Origin: a virus
IMG/VR virus record: IMGVR_UViG_3300042988_000477
Span: 1 to 25,577 of that record
Strand: one strand, 5' to 3'
Length of the DNA stretch: 25,577 nt
Shown: piece by piece, positions 7,310 to 23,491 of the stretch
Numbering within the stretch: the stretch's first letter is position 1
Layout of the letters: the number at the start of each line of letters is the position of its first letter
Made by a program: the position numbers and the translations under genes
The notes under the pieces: generated by a model
Told to the model about the DNA's origin: nothing
The model's input: the letters and a program-made list of their open reading frames with translations, nothing else
Database searches by the model: none

Positions 7310-8281
7310 ATGGAAACCCAGACCGGCAACATCCTCACCTTTACCGCTCCGTATGCCGTCACGCCAGGCGATGGCGCGCTGGTCGGCGCGTCATTCGGCG
7401 TCTCGACCGGCGCGTTCGCCCTCGGTGCGCGTGGCACGTTCGACCTGTCCGGCGTGTTCGAGTTGGCGAAGGCATCCGCGCAGGCCTGGGCCGAGGGAGC
7501 GGCGATCTACTGGGACGACTCGGCCAAGGTCTGCACGACCGTCGCGACAGCGAACACCCTGATCGGTGCGGCTGCCGCTGCTGCTGCTAACCCGTCGAGC
7601 ACCGGATCGGTGCGGTTGAATGGCGGGGCTGTGCCCATCACTTCGCTGCTGGACGGGAAGGCCGACGCTGACCACGATCACGATTCAGCGTATGCGGCGA
7701 TCGATCACGACCATGATTCGGCGTATCTGGCGATCGGCGCGCCTCCGGTCCTCACTGGCGCGAATACCGTGTGGGAGGATCTACGCTTTCCGGCGCAGGC
7801 CATCAACCCGCCTGGTAACGTCGACGATGCGGACATCGAGCCCGCGACCGGCTGTCTGCTGTTCGACGCGAGCGCCACGGAAGTGTGCATGGGCGTCGCT
7901 CAACTGCCGCACGCATGGAAGCAAGGCTCAACGATTCGCGCGCATGTTCACTGGACACCGACCAGCACAAACACCGGGAACGTCTATTGGCGGATCGACT
8001 ACCAGGTGAAGAACATCGGCGAGACGTTCGACTTCTCGGCCGGCTGGACGACGGCGAACACACTGGACGCCGCGGATGGCGTGTCCGGCAAACATCAGAT
8101 TCATCAACTGGCCGAGATCACGATGACCGACAAGACGGTCAGCTGCATGATGCACTGGAAGCTCTCCCGCATCGGTGGCGACGGGACGGACACCTACACG
8201 GCGGACGCCCGGCTGCTGGAATTCGACATCCACTACGAGGTGGACTCGATGGGCTCCGATGAAGAATTGACGAAGGCCTGA
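7310..8281 (+). CDS. Tail fibre protein with N-terminal DUF2190 decoration domain
   Basis: A 323-residue mosaic. Residues 1-105 are a DUF2190-like domain closely matching the decoration protein at 1274 (IYWDDSAKVCTT, NTLIG, VRLNGG). Residues 121-142 are two 11-residue repeats of the form DHDHDSAYxAI, a His/Asp-rich motif of phage fibres that can bind metal between chains of a trimer. The rest, from about 145, is a beta-sandwich-like region (NTVWEDLRFPAQAI, then RAHVHWTPTSTNTGNVYWRI and FDIHYEVDSMGS) of a kind found in phage fibre tips. Start supported by GGAAG nine bases upstream. It seems that a head-decoration module has been reused as the anchor of a fibre. Confidence 0.65.
   Translation: METQTGNILTFTAPYAVTPGDGALVGASFGVSTGAFALGARGTFDLSGVFELAKASAQAWAEGAAIYWDDSAKVCTTVATANTLIGAAAAAAANPSSTGSVRLNGGAVPITSLLDGKADADHDHDSAYAAIDHDHDSAYLAIGAPPVLTGANTVWEDLRFPAQAINPPGNVDDADIEPATGCLLFDASATEVCMGVAQLPHAWKQGSTIRAHVHWTPTSTNTGNVYWRIDYQVKNIGETFDFSAGWTTANTLDAADGVSGKHQIHQLAEITMTDKTVSCMMHWKLSRIGGDGTDTYTADARLLEFDIHYEVDSMGSDEELTKA
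7670..7735 (+). repeat. Two tandem 33-bp coding repeats (DHDHDSAY motif)
   Basis: Two adjacent 33-base units, 7670-7702 and 7703-7735, each encode DHDHDSAYxAI. The protein repeat is exact except for one residue, while several codons differ (for example CAC/CAT, TCA/TCG), so the protein sequence rather than the DNA is being kept. This suggests purifying selection on a metal-binding or trimerising motif. Confidence 0.8.
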
Positions 8282-13197: not shown

Positions 13198-14156
13198 TGG
13201 CCGTCTACACGCCAACGCCGGATTTCGAGTTCTTCGCCTCGGCATATACGCCAACCTCTGATTTTGTCGTCGGCAAATCGGCCGATCTCTCATTCAGCGA
13301 GCAATGGCTGCTCGATACGCTGCAATCGGCAAGCCTGTCTGCATCGTTCGGATGGTCGCTCTCGTCGAGCGTCACAAAGGACGTGACGCACGGCTTTGCC
13401 TGGATTCAATCCGCCCCGACCTTCGGCAACCGCACGGCCAACTTTGCCTATGGCCTGCAAGTTCCAGCATTCGCCGACACAGTGTCGAGCCAGTCATGGA
13501 AGCTCACGACCTACGACTACGCCGACCGATCGGCGGATATCGCATGGGCGATGGATGCCATCGATGCGGTTGAGGACTTGGCCTTCCGGCACCTCTGGCG
13601 CCTGCAGGCGACGGCGGTCTGGACGCGCGTCATCAGCGCGACGACGTACACGCTGACACTGACCGGCGAGGCCGACAGCACGACCGACCTGACGCTGCCG
13701 ATGGCGTCCTTCTCGTCCAGGCTGCGATCCGGCAACACCAGCTACCTGCAGGTATCCGTCCCCAACGCGCGCGCCTACGCGGCCGAGATTGCCGCACGAC
13801 CGAATGGCGAACTGGTTGTCGAGCGTGGGCTCCGCTGGTCCGACGGCACGGTCGAGGTGTCCGAGATCGCCCGGGGCACGATCTCACGCATCGATATCGA
13901 CACGGGCGCCAGATCGTCCACGGCCTCGCTGCAGGCCGGCGGCACGACCACCAACAGCACGCCCAAGACCGTGGCACTGTCCGGCGTCTCGTACAAAGCC
14001 AACGCCAACGGCTCGCGCCGGGTCCGGTCCAGCATCGACAATACCCTCCGGCCGGGTGACACCGCGACCTATGACGGCGAGACGATGGTGGTCGGCGACC
14101 TGGTGCATGTCGTCTCATCGCGTCAAGGCTACATGGAGCTGACGGAGGCGACCTGA
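13197..14156 (+). CDS. Baseplate hub-like protein with aromatic N-terminal repeats
   Basis: A 319-residue protein with GTG start sharing one base with the previous TAG. Residues 1-30 contain two similar peptides, YTPTPDFEF and YTPTSDFVV; residues 30-145 are an irregular series of Trp- and Phe-containing strands (FGWSLSSSV, HGFAWIQSA, ANFAYGLQV, ADIAWAMDA, FRHLWRLQA). From about 150 comes a domain I recognise from tail hubs of proteobacterial siphophages: YTLTLTGEADSTTDLTLPMA, YLQVSVPN, VVERGLRW, then VALSGVSYKA and LRPGDTATYDGETMVVGDLV. It precedes and overlaps the large hub gene. A structural role at the tail tip is likely. Confidence 0.6.
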   Translation: MAVYTPTPDFEFFASAYTPTSDFVVGKSADLSFSEQWLLDTLQSASLSASFGWSLSSSVTKDVTHGFAWIQSAPTFGNRTANFAYGLQVPAFADTVSSQSWKLTTYDYADRSADIAWAMDAIDAVEDLAFRHLWRLQATAVWTRVISATTYTLTLTGEADSTTDLTLPMASFSSRLRSGNTSYLQVSVPNARAYAAEIAARPNGELVVERGLRWSDGTVEVSEIARGTISRIDIDTGARSSTASLQAGGTTTNSTPKTVALSGVSYKANANGSRRVRSSIDNTLRPGDTATYDGETMVVGDLVHVVSSRQGYMELTEAT

Positions 14157-17100
14157 TGGGCCGCGCGACGGTCATCTCACACCTCGGCGATGGCGAGTAC
14201 CTGATCACACCCGATCCCGACCAGGCCTATCTGGACGAGGAGATCCAGCGGCTGACCGAGCAGCTCGCGACCGACACCCCGCGGCTTGAGGCGGCGATCA
14301 TCGCCGAAACCACCGCACGCGCCGCGCTCGATGACGCGCAGGCCGGCATCGACACCATCATCCGCGAGGCGCAGGCTGCGAACAACGCGTTGCTGCTCGC
14401 GCTCCAGGCTGCAATGGACGATCTGGACGACGCGACCGCCGCGGAGCAGGACCAGCAGACCGCGATCAACGGCATGGTCGCCGACCAGACCGAGCAGCTG
14501 GCAGTCTACGACCAGACGATCGAGGATCTCGAGCAGCAACTGGCCGAGGCGTCGACCCCGGAGCAACGCGCCGCGATCCAGTTGCAGATCGATGAAACCG
14601 AGACGGAGAAGACCGCCTACGAACTCAACACCAACACCGCCATCACCGCCGCCTATAACGACCTGAAGGCGCTGAAGGCGACCACCAAAGCCAAGCTCGG
14701 CGTCGTCAACGGTGCCCAGCAGACCTGGAACGATCGCGACCAGAAGCTCGCCGAGATCCGCGCGGCGATGGATGCGGCGGAGCCGCTTAAGGTTGCCTGG
14801 TACAAGGCGCGCGATGATCGGGCCGCGCTGCAACTCCAGCTGGCGGCGATGGCGCAGGACATCAAGTGGCTGGAGGCAAAGCGCAAGACGCCCGCTGACA
14901 CATCCGCCTGGTGCGCGGATCTGACCGAAACCCTCACAGGCGCCGTCGCGACCGTCGAGATCCCGGGCGAAACGGCCGGCGTGCCGGTGCTGATCCGTCC
15001 CGGGTATGAAGGCCGCGCAGTCTGGCAGGCGCAGGAGCAGCACGCCGCGCTGGTCGATGCCGTGCTGGCCGCGCAGGACGGGTGCCTATCGGCGCAATCG
15101 CTGGCCGACCTCGCGCGTCTCAATCTCGATGCCGCCAAGCAGCGCCGCGACGGGGCCGCGTCGACGCTTGCGCTGCTGCAGGCCGACCCCGACACGCTGC
15201 CGGCACTGATCGTCTCCGCGCAAGCACTGCTGGAGGCTGCCGAAACGACGGTGACGACCGCCGAGGCGTCGGTCACGTCCGCCGAGCAACGCATCGTCAC
15301 GACACGCGCCACGGCAACCGCTGCCCGGGCTGCACTACAGGCCGCGAGGGATGCCGCGGCGGCCGATGGTGCGACACCCGATCCGCGCATGGCAGACGGC
15401 AGGATGCAGCCGGTGGCGTCATCCTCACCCTGGGCCAGTTTCTGGAATCGCGCCGTGCTGCCGGCCTGGCAGAAATGGCGCCCGATGTACCGCCTGGGCG
15501 AGATCACCGAACTGTCCGGCGATACCTGCACCGTCATGCTCGACGCGGCCTACTCCAGCCAGCAGGCGATCGACCTCAATCGCGAAACCGAGCTGACCGG
15601 CGTGCCGATTGTCTACATGGAGTGCAACGGCGACGCGTTCGAGGCCGGCGACCGGGTGGTCGTTGAGTTTGCCTACCACGACCAGACCAAGCCGCGTGTG
15701 GTGGGGTTCGAGTCACATCCGAAGGCGTGCGGCACCGATCATGGCATGTTTATCACACCCATGTCGGACCTCTCATGTAACGGCTGGGGCTACCCGCTGA
15801 CGCAAGGCGAGCCGGACTGGGGCACTCCCGGCATGTCGACCGGCAGCGCGGTCGACCTGACCGGCTACACCGGACTGCTCGACGGTCGCGGCTATCAGGT
15901 CGGGCTGCTGAGTCTGACGGTGGACGGTATCCCATCGCCCGAGCTAGTGGTGAGGCACGGGGAACCGCTGTGGCCGGTCGTCGGGTCGACGTCGGTCGTC
16001 TCCGGGTCGGGTCAAACCGAGATCGCCGGCGGGCCTGTCGCCGTGACCGGCGTGTTGCCAGAGTCCGCGACCCAGCCGGACGGTTCCATCATCGTGCCGC
16101 GTTCCATCCCGGTCTGGTCGGTCAAAGGCTACCAGCCCCCATGGATCATCCCCTGCCAGCGGCAGCTGGCGGTTTATGAGACCGACGGGCTGCAGCTCCA
16201 GCTGCGCGACTACGACAACCTCTATGAGTCGTGCCGCTTCTCGTTCTACGGGCTGGCATCGGGGTCGCCGGTCTACCGTAACGGCAAGCCGGTGGCGTGG
16301 ACATCATCCCCGGTCGGCGACGGCGCGTTCCTGGGTGTCGGCGTGCGGCAGGTGACCGTGTCGGGGCAGACATTCCGCCGGCTGCTGGTCATTGGCGGCG
16401 ATCTCGACGCCTACTATGCCTGCTACTCCGACCCACCGTATAACACGCTGACCGTCTGCGGCACCTGTACCCGCGACAGCATCTCTAACCTGGCTGATGA
16501 ACAGCACAAGATGGAGACCGGCCAGGATGCCGGCTATGTCGCTTGGTATTTCAACGAGTCGGGCACGATCGCCTCATGCGTGGCGGCCTACGTCCGCGAT
16601 GCCGGCGAGTTCGCTGACAACGACCTGATCAACAGGGCGATCGACTTTCGTGTGCATCATATCGACTTCACCCTCGACGGCACGTCGGCGACTTTGCGAT
16701 CCGAGGCCGAAGGCGCACTGGGTGCGTATTATCGCGACGACGAGCACTCATCGCACAGCACGCCGGTCGAGCGGACCATCGCGATCGGCTACGTCGGCGA
16801 CGCAGAGAAAAGGTTGTCGTTCTGGTATAGCGGCCTTGTGACAGTCGGCTCCGGGGCGGGGCTGGACGAGGACGGACCAAGCCCTCAGTTTATAAGTAGC
16901 GCCTCCGACTCCACGGCCACAGGCCGCTACAAGATCAACGGCAGGACCGTGACCGGCGACATCGTCATGTACGACTACCACTACACGGGCGCTGCCACAT
17001 CCATCAAGGACTGGGTCGGCCACTGGAAATGGGTGACGCAGGTCGGTGACTACACTACGGCGGAGACGACCGGCTACCTGCAGTTGATTGCCGTGGACTT

Positions 17101-17293
17101 CCGAAATGAAGCGGTGTTCTTCGCGCATAAGCGGCAGGCCAACGACTACACCCGGCACCGGGAGTGGTACATCGACACGTTCAACTATACAGACCGATCG
17201 ATCAGGCTGGACGTGCTGTGCAACGCCGACATCCTCTATGCGGGCGGCGGCGAGATCTTTAACGGCGAGACGCCACCGGAGTGGTCCGTATGA
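14156..17293 (+). CDS. Large central tail hub/fibre protein with long coiled coil
   Basis: A 1045-residue protein. Residues 24-420 are almost continuous heptad-like Ala/Glu/Gln/Asp-rich helix (EEIQRLTEQL, IEDLEQQLAEA, DRAALQLQLAAM, AEASVTSAEQRI), interrupted near 255-300 by a small segment with VEIPGETAGVPVLIRPGYEG. From about 440 follow YRLGEITELSGDTCTVMLDA, TGVPIVYMECNGDAFEAGDRVVVEF and VVGFESHP, an OB-fold-like domain used in tail hubs. The C-terminal 500 residues are beta-rich with many Tyr and Trp and no obvious enzyme motif. It probably forms the tail tip or central fibre. The start overlaps the previous stop (TGATG); the end overlaps the next gene (ATGA). Confidence 0.65.
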   Translation: MGRATVISHLGDGEYLITPDPDQAYLDEEIQRLTEQLATDTPRLEAAIIAETTARAALDDAQAGIDTIIREAQAANNALLLALQAAMDDLDDATAAEQDQQTAINGMVADQTEQLAVYDQTIEDLEQQLAEASTPEQRAAIQLQIDETETEKTAYELNTNTAITAAYNDLKALKATTKAKLGVVNGAQQTWNDRDQKLAEIRAAMDAAEPLKVAWYKARDDRAALQLQLAAMAQDIKWLEAKRKTPADTSAWCADLTETLTGAVATVEIPGETAGVPVLIRPGYEGRAVWQAQEQHAALVDAVLAAQDGCLSAQSLADLARLNLDAAKQRRDGAASTLALLQADPDTLPALIVSAQALLEAAETTVTTAEASVTSAEQRIVTTRATATAARAALQAARDAAAADGATPDPRMADGRMQPVASSSPWASFWNRAVLPAWQKWRPMYRLGEITELSGDTCTVMLDAAYSSQQAIDLNRETELTGVPIVYMECNGDAFEAGDRVVVEFAYHDQTKPRVVGFESHPKACGTDHGMFITPMSDLSCNGWGYPLTQGEPDWGTPGMSTGSAVDLTGYTGLLDGRGYQVGLLSLTVDGIPSPELVVRHGEPLWPVVGSTSVVSGSGQTEIAGGPVAVTGVLPESATQPDGSIIVPRSIPVWSVKGYQPPWIIPCQRQLAVYETDGLQLQLRDYDNLYESCRFSFYGLASGSPVYRNGKPVAWTSSPVGDGAFLGVGVRQVTVSGQTFRRLLVIGGDLDAYYACYSDPPYNTLTVCGTCTRDSISNLADEQHKMETGQDAGYVAWYFNESGTIASCVAAYVRDAGEFADNDLINRAIDFRVHHIDFTLDGTSATLRSEAEGALGAYYRDDEHSSHSTPVERTIAIGYVGDAEKRLSFWYSGLVTVGSGAGLDEDGPSPQFISSASDSTATGRYKINGRTVTGDIVMYDYHYTGAATSIKDWVGHWKWVTQVGDYTTAETTGYLQLIAVDFRNEAVFFAHKRQANDYTRHREWYIDTFNYTDRSIRLDVLCNADILYAGGGEIFNGETPPEWSV

Positions 17294-17760
17294 GCACGCA
17301 AGGAGGCACGACTACGCTGCCGTGCGAGGGTGCTGTCACCGCCGGCACCAACCTGCAGGTGCTGGGTCGGCCGCTCGGGCTGATCAACTTCAACTACGAT
17401 CCGCGCGGACACTTCGACACGATCCGCGGCAATGGCGGCCCAGAAGCCGGACTTGGGGAGAGCATGATCCCGCGCGCCAGCGTTGTCATGGATGCGGGCG
17501 GCAATGTGCTGGTCAGTTTCTACATCCAGGAATTCACGCAGCACGGTCTACATGGTCTTGGGCAGTTCGACATGACCGGCCTGCCATCCTGCACGCGATT
17601 CTCGTCTAGCGGGCAATGGACGGCGGCGCCCATCAACCAGCGTCCGCGCGGCCTCAAGTTCGCCAGATACTACGCGACAAACGGTGACATCACCGACCTC
17701 TCGACGGTGGTCGACCCGCCCGGCGCCGACAATGGCTGGAAACTCGGAGGAGTCTTCTGA
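17290..17760 (+). CDS. Small tail-tip protein of unknown function
   Basis: A 156-residue protein. The in-frame GTG at 17281 is possible, but the ATG at 17290 overlaps the hub stop as ATGA, the pattern used throughout this genome, so I prefer it. It reads as a soluble beta protein (TNLQVLGRPLGLINFNYD, GNVLVSFYIQEFTQHGLHGLG, RGLKFARYYATNGDI) without signal peptide or membrane segment. Its place between the hub and the membrane proteins of the lysis region fits a minor tail component. It does not resemble a lysozyme, amidase or peptidase. Confidence 0.5.
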   Translation: MSTQGGTTTLPCEGAVTAGTNLQVLGRPLGLINFNYDPRGHFDTIRGNGGPEAGLGESMIPRASVVMDAGGNVLVSFYIQEFTQHGLHGLGQFDMTGLPSCTRFSSSGQWTAAPINQRPRGLKFARYYATNGDITDLSTVVDPPGADNGWKLGGVF

Positions 17761-17990
17761 TGAACGTTGACCATCTGATCGAGCACCTGACCGAACCCAG
17801 CACCATCCGGGGCATCATCTGGACCGCAGGCGCCTCGCTGGCGCTGCTGTGGATACACAAGGGCGACTACGAGGGCGCGCTGCAAGTCATCACGCAGACC
17901 GGTCTGGCTGTCGGCGCGGTCGGCATGCTGACGAGGGACACGCCTTGCGACAAGGAACCCGACGAAGGAGGCGACGGCGATGCCGGATGA
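17760..17990 (+). CDS. Holin-like small membrane protein
   Basis: A 76-residue protein whose ATG overlaps the previous stop. It has two hydrophobic stretches, about 17-32 (RGIIWTAGASLALLWI) and 41-57 (LQVITQTGLAVGAVGML), and an acidic, hydrophilic C-terminus (DKEPDEGGDGDAG). Size, two membrane passes and position after the tail genes fit a class II holin or a related lysis-cassette protein that permeabilises the inner membrane. No family signature is certain, and no endolysin is seen nearby to confirm a lysis cassette. Confidence 0.55.
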   Translation: MNVDHLIEHLTEPSTIRGIIWTAGASLALLWIHKGDYEGALQVITQTGLAVGAVGMLTRDTPCDKEPDEGGDGDAG

Positions 17991-18411
17991 ATGGGATGGG
18001 TACGATCGGCGCAAAGGGCTGGAACGACGCAGCGGTTATGACAGAAGGGGGAACATCTTGATTGACGACGAGAAAGCCGCGCCAGGGTTCACCATCAACA
18101 GTTGGCAGCAAGTACAGTCCATCCTCTACGTGCTGGTGATGTTGGTGGCCGGCATCGCCTGGGGCTTGAAGCTCGAAGCGCGCATCGACCGGGCCGACGA
18201 CGGCATCAAGAACGCCGAGCAGCAACTGGCGCACGGCATTCTCCCGATCACCGAGGAGCGAATGTCGCGGATGGATACCGAAAACCGGCGACTCCTGGCA
18301 GACCTGGAAGGCCTGCGCGCACAAGTCCAGAAGCTGGAGCTGGAGTTCGCAGGCCACCGCAGCAACAACGGCGGGAAAATGGCCGCGCCTGCGACCGGCA
18401 GAAGGCTTTGA
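17980..18411 (+). CDS. Membrane-anchored coiled-coil protein, possible spanin or lysis accessory
   Basis: A 143-residue protein overlapping the holin-like gene by 11 bases. Residues 8-23 repeat the peptide YDRR (GYDRRKGLERRSGYDRRG). One membrane helix lies at about 46-64 (QSILYVLVMLVAGIAWGLKL). A charged, heptad-like helix follows at about 66-125 (EARIDRADDGIKNAEQQL, ENRRLLADLEGLRAQVQKLE). A single membrane anchor plus coiled coil is the layout of inner-membrane spanins, but the long N-terminal part before the helix argues against a simple spanin. Its TGA stop lies inside the -35 element of the RNA promoter described next. Confidence 0.5.
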   Translation: MPDEWDGYDRRKGLERRSGYDRRGNILIDDEKAAPGFTINSWQQVQSILYVLVMLVAGIAWGLKLEARIDRADDGIKNAEQQLAHGILPITEERMSRMDTENRRLLADLEGLRAQVQKLELEFAGHRSNNGGKMAAPATGRRL

Positions 18412-18435
18412 CGCGTCCGCGCGTGCTGGTATAAT
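18408..18435 (+). promoter_or_regulatory. Near-consensus sigma70 promoter of the structured RNA
   Basis: TTGACG (18408-18413) and TATAAT (18430-18435) are separated by 16 bases, and a TG pair at 18427-18428 gives an extended -10 element. This is the best promoter visible in the window and needs no phage activator. Transcription should start near A18442. It overlaps the stop of the preceding gene, so the RNA is set up independently of late transcription. Confidence 0.8.
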
Positions 18436-18441
18436 TCACGC

Positions 18442-18618
18442 ACCTATCGGATGGCTCGCCATGCGAGATGGTCCCCGCGGCTAACCCCGCGGCCAGGGGG
18501 AGGACCCTGGATCTCTGGGCCACGACGCCGACAGCGATGTCGCCGAAACGAGTCTGGGGCGGGGCGACGGTTTAGGCTCGCTGTCCCGGTAAGAGAACCC
18601 GCTCCGGCGGGTTTTTTT
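18442..18618 (+). ncRNA. Structured phage RNA of about 177 nt, unknown family
   Basis: The RNA is bounded by the strong promoter and an intrinsic terminator and contains no convincing open frame with a ribosome-binding site. Three foldable parts are visible. First, a 5' hairpin CTCGC/GCGAG. Second, an arm pairing GAGATGGTCC (18465-18474) with GGACC (18502-18506) and, beyond a CTGG bulge, ATCTC (18511-18515); it encloses the hairpin CCGCGG-CTAACC-CCGCGG (18475-18492) and a purine-rich GGGGGA strand. Third, a long arm pairing GACAGCGA (18530-18537) with TCGCTGTC (18578-18585), stacked on TGTCGCC (18538-18544) with GGCGACG (18563-18569), leaving an 8-base bulge GTTTAGGC. I do not recognise a known family. 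It lies between the lysis genes and attP. Confidence 0.65.
18596..18618 (+). terminator. Intrinsic terminator of the structured RNA
   Basis: AACCCGC (18596-18602) pairs with GCGGGTT (18607-18613) around a TCCG tetraloop; a run of seven T (18612-18618) follows and overlaps the stem end. It is oriented for the plus strand and would also stop late-gene transcription reading through from the tail genes. Confidence 0.9.
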
Positions 18619-18694
18619 ACGCCTAGCGTTTGGCGGTCGGTGTCATAGACGATGGCAGGGGCCGGTGATGGATGCCATGCAAGCTCTTGAATTA

Positions 18695-18744
18695 TGGCGC
18701 CCCGGATACGATTCGAACGTACGGCCTTCCCCTTAGGAGGGTGA
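18695..18744 (-). other. attP core candidate: 3' half of a tRNA-Arg(CCT) gene
   Basis: Read on the minus strand this is an anticodon arm with loop CTCCTAA (anticodon CCT, 18737-18735), variable loop AGGCC, a T-arm with loop TTCGAAT and paired stem GTACG/CGTAT, acceptor strand CCGGGGC, discriminator G and encoded CCA (18697-18695). No matching 5' acceptor strand (GCCCCGG expected) exists upstream, and one anticodon-stem pair (A-G) is broken, so it is not a whole tRNA. Phages that integrate into tRNA genes carry precisely such a 3' half so that the host gene is restored. It lies 126 bases beyond the 3' end of the integrase gene. The stem mismatch suggests identity with the host begins at or 3' of the anticodon loop. 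Confidence 0.7.
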
Positions 18745-18845: not shown

Positions 18846-18870
18846 GGCAGGGGGATTGTCATAGTGGATG

Positions 18871-19851
18871 TTATAGCCGGTCAATAGCCGCGCGCAGATT
18901 CTCGGGCGCGAGGTGAGCATAGCGCTCGGTGACCTTGATGCTGGAGTGGCCGAGGAGGTCACGCACCTCGGGCAGCGGCACGCCAGCCATCACAAGCCAG
19001 GAGGCGCAGGTGTGGCGCATGTCGTGGGGCCGGAAGTTGGCGATCCCGGCGCGTCGGCAGGCGGCCGCGAATCCTTTCTTCAGATCCACGACGTGCCCCG
19101 CATCGCTGCAGAACACGAACGGCGAATGCCCGCAGCGCTCGCGCCTGCGTTCCAGCGCCTGCGCGACGACCGCATGGATGGGGATCGTTCGGCGACGTCG
19201 CGACTTAGTGTGCTCGGCTTCGAGGGTGATGATGCCCCGGTCCCGGTCGACCCGTGACCATTCGAGCGCGAAGATTTCGCCCGTCCGCATGCCGGTATAG
19301 AGCCCGATGGCGACGAGGTCGGCGATCATGTCCGACGAGGCGTCCAGCAGCCGCTGCGCGTCCTGCCGCGTGATCCAGCGGATGCGGCCTTCGGGTTCGC
19401 GGAGCTTGGCCCTGCTGACGTGGTTCTGGAGTTCGATGCCGCGGTCCCGGGCATACTCGTTGATGGCGGCGGATAGCAGGGTTAATTCCTTGTTGATCGT
19501 CCCGGCGGCGATGCCGGCCGTCTGGCGGGTTTCGATGTACCGGAGGACGGCAGGGCGGGTCAGTTCGTGGATGGATTGGCCGGCAAGATGCGCGGCGAGG
19601 ACGCGGACGGTCGATTGGTTGCGCTTGTGCAGGCGACCCGGTTTGGACAAATAGGCGGCTAGGACTTGATCAAGTGCAGCGATGGCGCCGCCGGATCGCT
19701 GGCGGGCTTTGAATCCTGAGGCGCGGAGGCCGTCTTCGAGCGCCTTGGCCTCGGCGTATACGGCTGTCCCAGCAGAGCGTCTAATCCGCTGGCCGGTGGC
19801 GTCGGTGTAGCTGATCCACCAGAGCGCGGTGTTTTTCTGTCTGTACGGCAT
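18871..19851 (-). CDS. int: Phage integrase, tyrosine recombinase
   Basis: A 326-residue site-specific recombinase that would join attP to a host attB, probably in tRNA-Arg(CCT). The start MPYRQKNTALWWISYTD at 19851 is chosen because it matches usual phage integrase openings; the open frame further upstream shadows the excisionase gene. Residues 1-60 form the arm-binding type beta domain, about 60-150 the SAM-like core-binding domain, 155-320 the catalytic domain. Catalytic residues visible are Arg189 (TGMRTGE), Lys216 (HTKS), His276 and Arg279 (HDMRH), His302 (LLGHSS) and nucleophile Tyr311 (ERYAHL). It is the last gene of the leftward early operon and points at attP. It overlaps the preceding gene by 193 bases in another frame. 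Confidence 0.95.
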   Translation of the reverse strand: MPYRQKNTALWWISYTDATGQRIRRSAGTAVYAEAKALEDGLRASGFKARQRSGGAIAALDQVLAAYLSKPGRLHKRNQSTVRVLAAHLAGQSIHELTRPAVLRYIETRQTAGIAAGTINKELTLLSAAINEYARDRGIELQNHVSRAKLREPEGRIRWITRQDAQRLLDASSDMIADLVAIGLYTGMRTGEIFALEWSRVDRDRGIITLEAEHTKSRRRRTIPIHAVVAQALERRRERCGHSPFVFCSDAGHVVDLKKGFAAACRRAGIANFRPHDMRHTCASWLVMAGVPLPEVRDLLGHSSIKVTERYAHLAPENLRAAIDRL

Positions 19852-20006
19852 CGATCGATGAAGGCATCCAGGTCGGTCTGATCGACGCGCACGATAGACC
19901 CGATCTTGATCGACGGCAACAGACCATCGCTGCACCAGCGGTAGGCGGTGCGCTCGGCGACCCGCATCCGGGCCGCGACTTCGGGGATGGTGAGGTAGGC
20001 GGTCAT
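19659..20006 (-). CDS. Excisionase-like HTH_17 (MerR-type) DNA-binding protein
   Basis: A 115-residue protein. Residues 1-55 form a winged helix-turn-helix of the HTH_17 type: YLTIPEVAARMRVAERTAYRWCSDG, then LLPSIKIGSIVRVDQTDLDAFIDRC. This is the usual form of small recombination directionality factors, which bend attachment-site DNA to favour excision. The rest, about 60-115, is Pro/Ser/Arg-rich and lies over the start of the integrase gene in another frame, so it is probably disordered. The start is fixed by an ATGA overlap with the preceding Lar-like gene. Position directly before int supports an Xis role, although a transcriptional regulator is possible. Confidence 0.7.
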   Translation of the reverse strand: MTAYLTIPEVAARMRVAERTAYRWCSDGLLPSIKIGSIVRVDQTDLDAFIDRCRTDRKTPRSGGSATPTPPASGLDALLGQPYTPRPRRSKTASAPQDSKPASDPAAPSLHLIKS

Positions 20007-20326
20007 TCCATCGTCGCCTTGATCGCATCGGCAACCTGTAGCGCGGTGCCGTCGAGCCCGGCCAGCCCAAGTGCCAGGTCTTCGCATTCCAGTCGAGCCG
20101 CGAGGTCGACTGATTTGACGCCGCGCATGTCGTTCCATTCATTCATTGCGTCAGACCGCGCTCGTTGTTCCCACTCTTCCGGCGTACCGTCGCCAAGCGT
20201 CTGAATCCGTACTTCCCCGCACCGTGCGCCGCAACCGTCGCACTCAGCCACGCACCAGCGGAAGGTGGAGCCTTCGACAACGCTGACAGAGGTGGAACCG
20301 CACCACGGGCATGGCTTCGTGGTCAT
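20003..20326 (-). CDS. Lar-type zinc ribbon protein with C-terminal extension
   Basis: A 107-residue protein. CPWCG (Cys6, Cys9) and CDGCGARCG (Cys29, Cys32, with Cys25 and Cys36 near) form a zinc ribbon like that of the Lar restriction-alleviation family, ending in the typical DAMNEWN helix at about 60-65. Lar of the Rac prophage protects DNA by modulating a type I restriction-modification system; most family members are untested. After the ribbon comes an extra 40-residue helical, acidic tail (VDLAARLECEDLALGLAG) not usual for the family. It overlaps both neighbours by ATGA. Confidence 0.65.
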   Translation of the reverse strand: MTTKPCPWCGSTSVSVVEGSTFRWCVAECDGCGARCGEVRIQTLGDGTPEEWEQRARSDAMNEWNDMRGVKSVDLAARLECEDLALGLAGLDGTALQVADAIKATME

Positions 20327-20524: not shown

Positions 20525-21637
20525 TCAGATCCTCATCGGCATGACGACGGAGCGCCAGTTCGCGTTCGCGACGTCTTCGATGACACAGGCGCCATTGTCC
20601 GAGATCAGCAGCGCGACGCTGTCGCCTTCGGCGATGTTGAGGCCGTCGAGCAGATACCGGCCGCAGTAGCCGTCGCGTCGGGGTTCGCCGTCGAGCTCCT
20701 GGGTGGCGACGGTGTCGTCTGCGGATTCGGTCGCCGAGTTGCCGAGCGAGAGTTCGATGGCGTCGTCCCCGGTTCGGAGCGCAACGGCCGATTTATCATC
20801 GGCCAGGACGAGCACGCGCTGCAGCGCGGCGGTGAGGTCGAGCCGGCCGGCGCGACATCGCAGCACGTGCGTGTTGGGCATCACCCGCCGGTAGTCGGGA
20901 AACCGTCCTTCGATGAGCCGGCTCGAAAGTTCGACATGGCCAATGGTGGCGGTGATGCTGTTGTCGCCAATGCCGAGGCTGACGATGCGGTTCGGCGGGA
21001 CCTTGGCATCCTCGCGCAGCAGCCGCGACAGTTCATCGATGCCTTTGGCGGGCACGATGACCATCGGGCACGTCGCATCGGTGTCGAGCGGCATTTCGCA
21101 CAGGGCCAGCCGGTGACCATCGGAGGCGACGGTGCGCAGCATGCCGGGCTGGATTTCGAGCGCGAGGCCGTTGAGGTAGAACCGGACGTCGCCGCGCGCG
21201 ACGGCGAATCGCGTCTTGCTGATCGCAGTCAGCAGCGCCGAGGCGGGCAGTTCGATCCGCTGCGTGATCGCGCCACGGTCGAAGGCCGGATAGCCCTCGG
21301 CCGGCATCGTCGCGAGGCTGTACCGGCTGCGGCCCGACTTGACGATCACCCGCTCGCCGGCCGATGCGTCGATCGACACGGCGGCGACATCCGGCATCAG
21401 CCGCAGGATCTCGGTGAGCTTGCGGGCGGGCACCGTCGTCAGGCCTGGCGCCTCGACGTCGACCGTGGCCATCGCGGTGATCTGGATCTCGAGGTCGGTG
21501 GCGGTGATGCGCAGCTGGCCGTGAGCGTCCAGGTCGATCAGGAACTGGTCGAGGATCGGCAGCGTCGTGCGGCCGATGGCGCCCATCGAGCGGAGCAGGG
21601 CGGGGAGCATGCCGCCAGGAGTCGTCGTGAATTTCAT
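20525..21637 (-). CDS. dnaN: DNA polymerase III beta sliding clamp homologue (phage DnaN)
   Basis: A 370-residue full-length beta clamp (E. coli DnaN is 366). The start MKFTTTPGGMLPALL is chosen over the longer open frame because it matches the DnaN opening and overlaps the preceding gene by ATGA. Conserved features are TTLPILDQFLIDL and LRITATDLEIQI (about 24-53), GEYP-like AEGYPAFD (113-120), SDGHRLAL (172-179), EGRFPDYRRVMP (243-254) and the C-terminus VVMPMRI. The protein-binding groove residues known from E. coli (DGHRL near 173-177 and the final MPMR) are kept at matching places, so it should bind clamp-binding peptides of polymerases and repair proteins. It would form a dimeric ring tethering a polymerase during phage replication. 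Rare in temperate siphophages, to my knowledge. Confidence 0.93.
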   Translation of the reverse strand: MKFTTTPGGMLPALLRSMGAIGRTTLPILDQFLIDLDAHGQLRITATDLEIQITAMATVDVEAPGLTTVPARKLTEILRLMPDVAAVSIDASAGERVIVKSGRSRYSLATMPAEGYPAFDRGAITQRIELPASALLTAISKTRFAVARGDVRFYLNGLALEIQPGMLRTVASDGHRLALCEMPLDTDATCPMVIVPAKGIDELSRLLREDAKVPPNRIVSLGIGDNSITATIGHVELSSRLIEGRFPDYRRVMPNTHVLRCRAGRLDLTAALQRVLVLADDKSAVALRTGDDAIELSLGNSATESADDTVATQELDGEPRRDGYCGRYLLDGLNIAEGDSVALLISDNGACVIEDVANANWRSVVMPMRI

Positions 21638-21966
21638 GAGAGTGGTTTGCCGAGAATGAAGGCCTGTTGGAGTTTGCCGAGGTCGGTGTTGCGGAATCCT
21701 TCGCCGGGTATCCATTCGATGCCGATGTCTCGCGGCGCGTCGGGGTCCGCGCTGCTGCTGGCGGTGCCGCGCGAGATGTACGACCGGCAGGCCGCGCATT
21801 TCATCGTCTCGTTCGAGCGGGCCGCGCGGAGGGCGTCGTGGTTGCGATGGTATTCGGTGCCGCACTGGGTGCAGCGCACGCGGTAGACGTTGGAGTGGAC
21901 GTGGCTGACGACGTGATAGCACCCGTAGCATTCGCCGATGCGGTCGGCCGGAGGGATTTTTCGCAT
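21634..21966 (-). CDS. Zinc protein with three CxxC pairs
   Basis: A 110-residue protein with Cys13/Cys16, Cys32/Cys35 and Cys57/Cys60, each as CxxC, plus several His between them (YHVVSHVHSN, EYHRNHDAL). The first four Cys could make one zinc ribbon, with the third pair and a His making part of a second site. The C-terminal 50 residues are not Cys-containing and end GKLQQAFILGKPLS. It overlaps the clamp gene (ATGA) and the kinase gene (TGATG). Nucleic-acid binding is a reasonable guess from the zinc pattern; no family is recognised. Confidence 0.6.
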   Translation of the reverse strand: MRKIPPADRIGECYGCYHVVSHVHSNVYRVRCTQCGTEYHRNHDALRAARSNETMKCAACRSYISRGTASSSADPDAPRDIGIEWIPGEGFRNTDLGKLQQAFILGKPLS

Positions 21967-22514
21967 CAGTCCGCCTCAAGCAGCCGGGCGACGCGCTGGT
22001 GGAGCGTCGGGAGGTCGCAGTCGTTGTCGAGGGTCCGGTCATGCGCGGCGACGGACAGTCCGTCCTCGGAGATGTGCGCTTGCACCTGATGGCCAGGGCG
22101 GCTCAGGTGCCAGAGTTCGCCCCGGCTGCGGACCCAGTCGGCCTCGTTGGCGAATCGCACGTCGGACACGACCGCGCCGACCACGCGGGTGATGACGCGG
22201 CATTCCCGCATCTCGATCAGCCAGTTCGCCTCCCGCTCGACGCGCCGGACCCAAAGATCCTCGCCGATCAGTTCACGCCCGAATTCGGTTCCGAGCAGCT
22301 GCATCAGTTCGCGCGGACTCCGCCCGCACAACGCGTCCTGCGGCTGTTCCTTGATGTCCTGGAGCTGTTCCGACGAGATGCCGAGCAGCTGTCGCACGAA
22401 TCGCCGCAGCGGATCGCCGAAGGACAGTTCGTGGTAAGCATGCCGATCGACGAGGATGCTCGCGACGGTGCTTTTGCCTGATCCGGCGGGGCCGGTGAGT
22501 CCGATGATTTTCAT
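21966..22514 (-). CDS. Deoxynucleoside monophosphate kinase
   Basis: A 182-residue P-loop kinase. The Walker A loop is GPAGSGKST (8-16); the following helix and HELSFGDPLRRFVRQLLGI (about 28-46) match phage dNMP kinases. Later segments include SPRELMQLLGTEFGRELIGEDLWV (near 66-90), the typical substrate-side region, and VVSDVRFANEADWV (about 116-129). Such enzymes phosphorylate dNMPs to supply dNTPs for replication, consistent with the clamp two genes downstream. The start is the ATG at 22514, which overlaps the preceding stop (ATGA); the longer upstream frame shadows that gene. Confidence 0.85.
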   Translation of the reverse strand: MKIIGLTGPAGSGKSTVASILVDRHAYHELSFGDPLRRFVRQLLGISSEQLQDIKEQPQDALCGRSPRELMQLLGTEFGRELIGEDLWVRRVEREANWLIEMRECRVITRVVGAVVSDVRFANEADWVRSRGELWHLSRPGHQVQAHISEDGLSVAAHDRTLDNDCDLPTLHQRVARLLEAD

Positions 22515-22876
22515 GGGTTGCTTGATGGGCCAACGAGCGCCGATGGCGGGCGCGGAATGTCCACGCCGATCGGGCGCCAAAGGTGGAGCGTATAAGGGTG
22601 AAAGTTCACGTAGGCGGACTCGGGCGGGTGAAATTGCAAGACCATATCCTCCGGGCCCCAGAACAGCGCCTTGACGTGGCACATCTCGGCCCACCTCGGT
22701 GTGCGGTTGTTACATGACACGGAGACGTGTTCCCACCCTTCGCCATCGGAGGCGATGACGCGCAGCAGCAGCCCTCTGGCCGGATTCCTGAGAATGAATG
22801 CGCCGTTATTGCCCATCGTGGAATCTGAGCCAAGCGGACCGTCCTTGAGTCGGAATTTCTCTGGCACGTGGAACAT
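22511..22876 (-). CDS. Conserved phage protein, DUF7694-like
   Basis: A 121-residue protein starting MFHVPEKFR, preceded by a purine-rich GGGAGAGGGTGAGG ribosome-binding stretch. It has the conserved phage pattern WEHVSVSCNNRTPRWAEMCHV followed by LFWGPEDMVLQFHPPESAYVN and HPYTLHLWRP. This small protein is common in early regions of proteobacterial phages, and no activity is known to me. The His/Pro/Trp-rich end could bind metal or nucleotide. It is coupled to the kinase by an ATGA overlap, which hints at a role in nucleotide or DNA metabolism but does not prove it. Confidence 0.75.
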   Translation of the reverse strand: MFHVPEKFRLKDGPLGSDSTMGNNGAFILRNPARGLLLRVIASDGEGWEHVSVSCNNRTPRWAEMCHVKALFWGPEDMVLQFHPPESAYVNFHPYTLHLWRPIGVDIPRPPSALVGPSSNP

Positions 22877-23085
22877 CACCTCACCCTCTCCCGCCTGATC
22901 GCAGGCGGTATGGCAGGCAATCCGGCGAAGGGCGGGCGTGCATCCCATGCGGCGACCGCGGCCTCCTGACGCTCCCGGCCCGGGCCGACCGATCCGCAGC
23001 CTTGGCAGACGACCGCATAGATGGGCCAGGTCGCGACGCCGACCTCTTCGACTTCACCCTCGTCGCCGCAGAATGGGCACCGCAT
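22876..23085 (-). CDS. Lar-type zinc ribbon protein (second)
   Basis: A 69-residue protein. CPFCG (Cys3, Cys6), a strand WPIYAVVC, then CQGCGSVGPG (Cys27, Cys30) and AVAAWDARP form a complete Lar-type zinc ribbon. A GGAGG Shine-Dalgarno lies about eight bases before the ATG, which decides the start within a much longer open frame. The last 18 residues (AIPPAIRRERVR) are basic. It overlaps both neighbours. Restriction alleviation is the family-level guess. Confidence 0.7.
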   Translation of the reverse strand: MRCPFCGDEGEVEEVGVATWPIYAVVCQGCGSVGPGRERQEAAVAAWDARPPFAGLPAIPPAIRRERVR

Positions 23086-23309
23086 CAGTGCATCCTCCGA
23101 TCGGGCACGCGCGGGAGGTGAACGAAGTTCATGCGGACCTGAATCTGACCCTGTTTCACGTTCTCCCGGTGCTCGCCTTCGATCTCGGCGATCAGGGCGT
23201 CGATGTCGGGGTCGGGGTAGTGTCGGTCGACCCAGCAGATGCCGCGCATGCCAACGTCTTCGAGCCAGACGAACAGGGCTTCGAGCCCGCGAAAGATCAG
23301 TCGCTTCAT
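23085..23309 (-). CDS. Small early protein with amphipathic N-terminus, unknown
   Basis: A 74-residue protein that starts KRLIFRGLEALFVWLEDVGM, an amphipathic helix that might lie on a membrane. Then DRHYPDPDIDALIAEIEGEH, an acidic helical part, and a basic end (HLPRVPDRRMH). It overlaps the genes on both sides. I do not recognise it. Confidence 0.55.
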   Translation of the reverse strand: MKRLIFRGLEALFVWLEDVGMRGICWVDRHYPDPDIDALIAEIEGEHRENVKQGQIQVRMNFVHLPRVPDRRMH

Positions 23310-23491
23310 CGGTCAGTCTCCGGGAGGTTCCAGGCGCGGATCGCGTCTTCGTAGGGTTGGGTTCGGTCGCTCGGGTGCGGACCGACGGCGCCGCAGTGCG
23401 GGCAGACGACCGCCCAGACGTGCGGCTGGACTTCGGCCATCTGCAGGCCTTCGGCGGGCGTGTTACACCAGGGGCAGGGCTCAAGGCGCAT
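23306..23491 (-). CDS. Lar-type zinc ribbon protein (third)
   Basis: A 61-residue protein with CPWC (Cys6, Cys9), VWAVVCPHCGAVGP (Cys30, Cys33) and the closing EDAIRAWN helix, all hallmarks of the Lar-like zinc ribbon. I prefer MRLEPCPWC at 23491 as start over the ATG at 23542, because the added N-terminus (RRYSGPTAPPSTTERS) looks like shadow sequence of the next gene. It overlaps that gene by 11 bases. It is the shortest and most canonical of the three Lar-like proteins in this operon. Confidence 0.7.
   Translation of the reverse strand: MRLEPCPWCNTPAEGLQMAEVQPHVWAVVCPHCGAVGPHPSDRTQPYEDAIRAWNLPETDR

Follow-up and report, generated by a model that had tools for sequence, protein, structure and literature searches.

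A candidate small RNA gene at the prophage end of an uncultured temperate phage

Main

Small RNAs (sRNAs) of phages with roles in lysogens are known (PMC12803456, PMC12197685), so the prophage-sRNA class is a plausible one for the locus reported here. The closest described systems are svsR, an sRNA of the lambdoid prophage NC-SV in E. coli NC101 (PMC12803456), and VpdS, 24B_1, sar and OOP, which are phage-derived sRNAs with known roles (reviewed in PMC12197685). The description of prophage sRNAs that alter the host surface or phage susceptibility is only beginning.

Here we analyse a 25,577-base virus record (IMG/VR IMGVR_UViG_3300042988_000477, positions 1 to 25,577; hereafter the window), in which a short unit between the late genes and the integrase had been predicted to encode an undescribed, strongly structured RNA. 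We give about even credence to the reading that this unit is a stand-alone sRNA gene at the prophage end (moron-like), a member of a known heterogeneous kind. That reading draws on the promoter and terminator sequences, the position of the unit, its conservation in one sister phage and the lack of a good open reading frame (ORF), all observed here; from these we infer transcription, activity in the lysogen, action in trans and a target.

Gene order and attachment site

On the + strand, head and tail genes are followed by a fibre-like large protein (14156-17293) and by small lysis-type genes (17281-18411). The candidate unit comes next, ahead of a tRNA-like stretch; the tyrosine integrase gene after it is on the - strand, as are the early genes that follow. 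The features that flank the unit are:

17980-18411, + strand: last late gene, upstream of the unit (143 aa)
18641-18654, + strand: arm-type direct repeat TGTCATAGACGATG
18695-18744, - strand: attP core, the 3' half of tRNA-Arg(CCT), matching chromosomal genes at 94% over 50 nt
18857-18870, + strand: arm-type direct repeat TGTCATAGTGGATG
18871-20142, - strand: tyrosine integrase

The product of the last late gene has, by eye, an apparent membrane helix and a coiled-coil-like tail, and is of lysis type. The chromosomal tRNA-Arg(CCT) genes matched by the core belong to genomes in the family of a Dokdonella MAG, and the window lacks the 5' portion of the tRNA, as expected for an attP core. The repeats TGTCATAGacGATG (18641) and TGTCATAGtgGATG (18857) bracket this core and resemble integrase arm sites, and two integrases 34-37% identical to that of the window adjoin tRNA-Arg(CCT) in two other genomes. 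The tRNA half, the flanking repeats and the integrase alongside thus confirm the position next to attP given by the original prediction, and the unit has the prophage-end location of a moron-like stand-alone sRNA.

In a Marinobacter guineae prophage (L033, on a contig shared with L030), tRNA-Arg(CCT) lies ~8 kb from related tail genes and is perhaps the same integration site. Elsewhere in the window, a phage DNA polymerase III beta clamp is encoded at 20525-22042 (- strand), with all three Pfam domains matched; its N-terminal extension probably reflects a mis-called start. Two early ORFs on the - strand (20003-20326 and 22876-23484) weakly match Lar restriction alleviation (Pfam PF14354) and are possible anti-restriction proteins, and the phage cement protein domain PF09956 occurs in two separate genes (510-1274 and 7310-8281).

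Promoter, terminator and predicted transcript

The boundaries of the unit are set by two elements, from which the transcript is predicted:

18408-18435, + strand: extended -10 sigma70 promoter, TTGACG-N16-TATAAT with TGn before the -10 (11/12)
18442-18618, + strand: predicted transcript of ~175 nt, with its start placed 7 nt after the -10
18596-18618, + strand: intrinsic terminator, AACCCGC-TCCG-GCGGGTT followed by T5 (z -3.6)

The near-perfect promoter was found exactly as it had been described, and its -35 shares bases with the upstream gene's stop codon. It is the sole site scoring at least 11/12 on either strand of the window, and neither the window nor the related loci scanned contained another such promoter with a terminator within 450 bases. 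The terminator, ~160 nt downstream of the -10, also proved to be where it had been claimed, and its hairpin is more stable than 99.7% of shuffles; its sequence is generic and is the source of blastn matches to many other phages. The unit thus carries its own host-type promoter and terminator, as a stand-alone prophage sRNA gene would. Host RNA polymerase with sigma70 would initiate near 18442, phage factors being unneeded, and transcription would halt at 18618, shortly before the integrase arm site. Integration would place the unit at the prophage's tail-gene end, where it would be expressed even with the lytic genes switched off.

It might also be transcription itself that matters, with a promoter that faces attP and converges with int serving to insulate or tune integration and excision. 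The predicted transcript does converge with int and stops 23 bp before the first arm-type repeat, but the terminator would block transcription before attP and the conservation within the transcript (see below) would be left unexplained; we regard this account as very unlikely.

Folding of the predicted RNA

The structural elements considered, all on the + strand, are:

18455-18467, + strand: 5' hairpin CUCGC-CAU-GCGAG, present in both the MFE and the centroid structure
18469-18522, + strand: three-way domain, with an outer stem UGGUCC/GGGCCA around two hairpins (z -1.8)
18475-18492, + strand: hairpin CCGCGG-CUAACC-CCGCGG, inside the three-way domain
18493-18510, + strand: hairpin CCAGGG-GGAGGA-CCCUGG, inside the three-way domain
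18530-18585, + strand: two-helix arm of the original prediction, which competes with another fold and is no better than shuffles

The whole transcript folds at -86.5 kcal/mol (z -2.1), mostly owing to the terminator, because the transcript minus the terminator hairpin (18442-18591) yields a z of about -0.6 against shuffles. The strong structure that had been claimed is therefore mostly unsupported, the folding being ordinary for the base composition: elsewhere in this genome, 38% of 256 stretches of 150 nt fold at least as well as 18442-18591, relative to shuffles. The exceptions are the terminator and the twin hairpin (18475-18511), with a z of -2.6 equalled by 1.3% of shuffles, this being one of nine stretches tested and uncorrected for that choice.

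The other structural claims fared unevenly. An arm of stacked 8-bp and 7-bp helices is present as sequence, but its pair probability is 0.02-0.06 in a 3' region with a z of 0.0; it lies 1.6 kcal/mol above the optimum and is therefore possible, not special. The proposed switch between alternative pairings of GGACC finds the complementarity in place, yet the GGUCC/GGACC pairing has a probability of 0.00 and lies 9 kcal/mol above the optimum, so a two-state switch is unsupported. The suggested pseudoknot between the CUAACC loop and UUAG would depend on the 3' arm, whose folding is at chance. The hairpin that displays GGAGGA does exist (pair probability 0.99-1.0), but the special GGA-binding role suggested for it is unsupported, with four GGA motifs against 3.6 expected by shuffling and no ANGGA.

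These counts bear on whether the RNA is a sponge for CsrA/RsmA, or an anti-Shine-Dalgarno sponge, acting through the GGAGGA loop. The stability of that hexaloop hairpin would suit such a role, as would a weak match to rsmX (Rfam RF02144); this match reaches 22.4 bits where 56 are needed, and is carried mainly by the terminator. The transcript has a single such loop, GGA motifs at chance, which disfavours a CsrA sponge, and neither the several ANGGA loops nor the Rfam gathering score of a CsrA/RsmA-binding sRNA. We consider a sponge highly improbable.

Conservation in a sister phage

One homologue was found, on IMG/VR contig 3300042988_000227 (L006), from a sister phage with a tape measure protein 97% identical to that of the window. 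This contig ends (L006:20256) at the base matching 18521, that is, inside the predicted RNA, possibly since the sequence beyond is common to several phages in that metagenome. From 18404 to 18521 the two phages differ by one substitution in 118 bases, whereas 37 of 422 positions (about 9%) are changed in the upstream gene; at that rate, one change or fewer in 118 nt has a P of about 2e-4. In the upstream gene 28 of the 36 counted changes fall at third codon positions, with a third-position divergence of about 20%. The single substitution in the unit, at 18511, is unpaired in the model and adjacent to the twin hairpin.

The identical run of 110 bases at the unit is the second longest in the ~12 kb compared with L006. 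The longest, 111 bases (1883-1993), crosses the junction of ORFs that end and start at 1925, and may be a recombination patch or a constrained site. Because a comparable run exists elsewhere, a recombination patch is also possible at the unit. The unusual conservation of the promoter and 5' part in this one sister phage is therefore suggestive, not proof.

Coding potential

The original prediction saw no credible open frame, which is nearly right. Four ATG ORFs begin within the transcript, at 18451 (no stop before the terminator), 18461 (7 codons), 18468 (35 codons) and 18537 (12 codons), and none has a ribosome site at proper spacing. The third of these had been overlooked:

18468-18575, + strand: 35-codon ORF MVPAANPAARGRTLDLWATTPTAMSPKRVWGGATV, with no Shine-Dalgarno at proper spacing

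The unit could accordingly be read as a mini-gene, with leader and terminator, for a 35-aa small protein. The ORF closes ahead of the terminator and its third-position GC (0.83) resembles that of the phage's genes, but its second-position GC is 0.69 against 0.42-0.54 in genes. In the 18 codons that can be compared with L006 (two sequences only), third-position changes number zero against ~3.6 expected from the upstream gene, and the sole change is nonsynonymous (D15G). The ORF is probably not a gene, and we judge the mini-gene account distinctly unlikely.

Searches for relatives

No Rfam 15 family matched at the gathering threshold, in agreement with the claim that the RNA is undescribed. At E up to 10, all matches were sub-threshold, and the best ended in the terminator. 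An HDV-like ribozyme and 6S RNA were dropped on this ground, and attC was dropped because, by eye, the sequence does not match its core motifs. The longest exact complement to the phage's own genes, in an antisense search with no null comparison, is 12 nt.

Relatives were equally scarce. Blastn of phage and plasmid records yielded only terminators and GC-rich noise, and 300 genomes from the order to which the Dokdonella MAG belongs again gave GC-rich noise. When IMG/VR was scanned for patterns of the loops, the 5' hairpin, the twin hairpin and the 3' arm, the end-cut sister contig or nothing was recovered; a pattern scan of GTDB contigs gave no match. A covariance model (R1) built on the single sequence gave nothing above chance when run on sets of 234 and 39 genomes, on the tail-module relatives and on regions beside related integrases; distant relatives may be missed because a single-sequence model has limited reach. 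Across these searches, the genomes sampled represented the order and family to which the Dokdonella MAG belongs, together with that of a Competibacter MAG at family level. Among the tail-module relatives (Marinobacter PS3, Competibacter and Dokdonella prophages, and IMG/VR contigs), no promoter-terminator unit this good was seen, an absence that applies to loci whose late region could be read to its end, since some loci end before the matching place.

This distribution would also fit an ordinary late-operon end, made up of a 3' UTR and the late terminator, in which the promoter is fortuitous or minor and any sRNA is a 3'-UTR by-product. The terminator at 18596-18618 is the first to be seen beyond the lysis-type genes, the RNA as a whole folds no better than chance, and tail-module relatives have no homologue at the matching position. 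Set against this, no promoter scoring at least 11/12 arose when one strand was dinucleotide-shuffled 40 times, and the promoter region is unchanged over 38 nt in L006. We hold this account possible but not likely. Counting against the reading as a stand-alone sRNA gene, besides the possible recombination patch, are a fold at chance except for the twin hairpin and terminator, and a single homologue that is cut by a contig end.

Discussion

If the unit is a stand-alone sRNA gene, its RNA would most likely act in trans through the conserved 5' twin-hairpin domain, whose exposed loops (CUAACC or GGAGGA) would base-pair with a target RNA, or which would itself bind a host protein. A bolder version, which we think rather unlikely, is that of an undescribed, lysogen-expressed phage sRNA confined so far to a small tRNA-Arg(CCT)-integrating group, reprogramming RNAs of the host or of competing phages via the twin-hairpin loops; its roles may then include host control, superinfection exclusion or counter-defence. 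The candidate is modest overall and unproven. If transcribed, it would contribute an orphan sRNA of a temperate phage group that is uncultured and unstudied, and the defined promoter, terminator and prophage-end position would make its expression and phenotype directly testable.

Compared with known systems, the candidate shares a terminator hairpin with istR, isrK and isrB, but scores well below the Rfam gathering threshold for them, with matches that end in the generic terminator. It resembles the CsrA sponges of the RsmX/RsmY/RsmZ type (RF02144) in being GC-rich, with a GGA-bearing loop and an intrinsic terminator, and differs from them in its score (22 bits of the 56 needed, mainly terminator) and in a GGA count at chance. 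VpdS, 24B_1, sar and OOP are likewise short noncoding phage transcripts, some active in lysogens, but they have known targets, and no Rfam relation of the candidate to them was found. Whereas svsR is encoded at the 3' end of cI and has a 77-nt alignment to co293, homologues across Enterobacteriaceae and a phenotype (PMC12803456), the present candidate is positioned at the attP end, with a single known relative, and is known here from its sequence. What it would share with svsR is the character of a small RNA of a temperate phage that acts on the host from the prophage.
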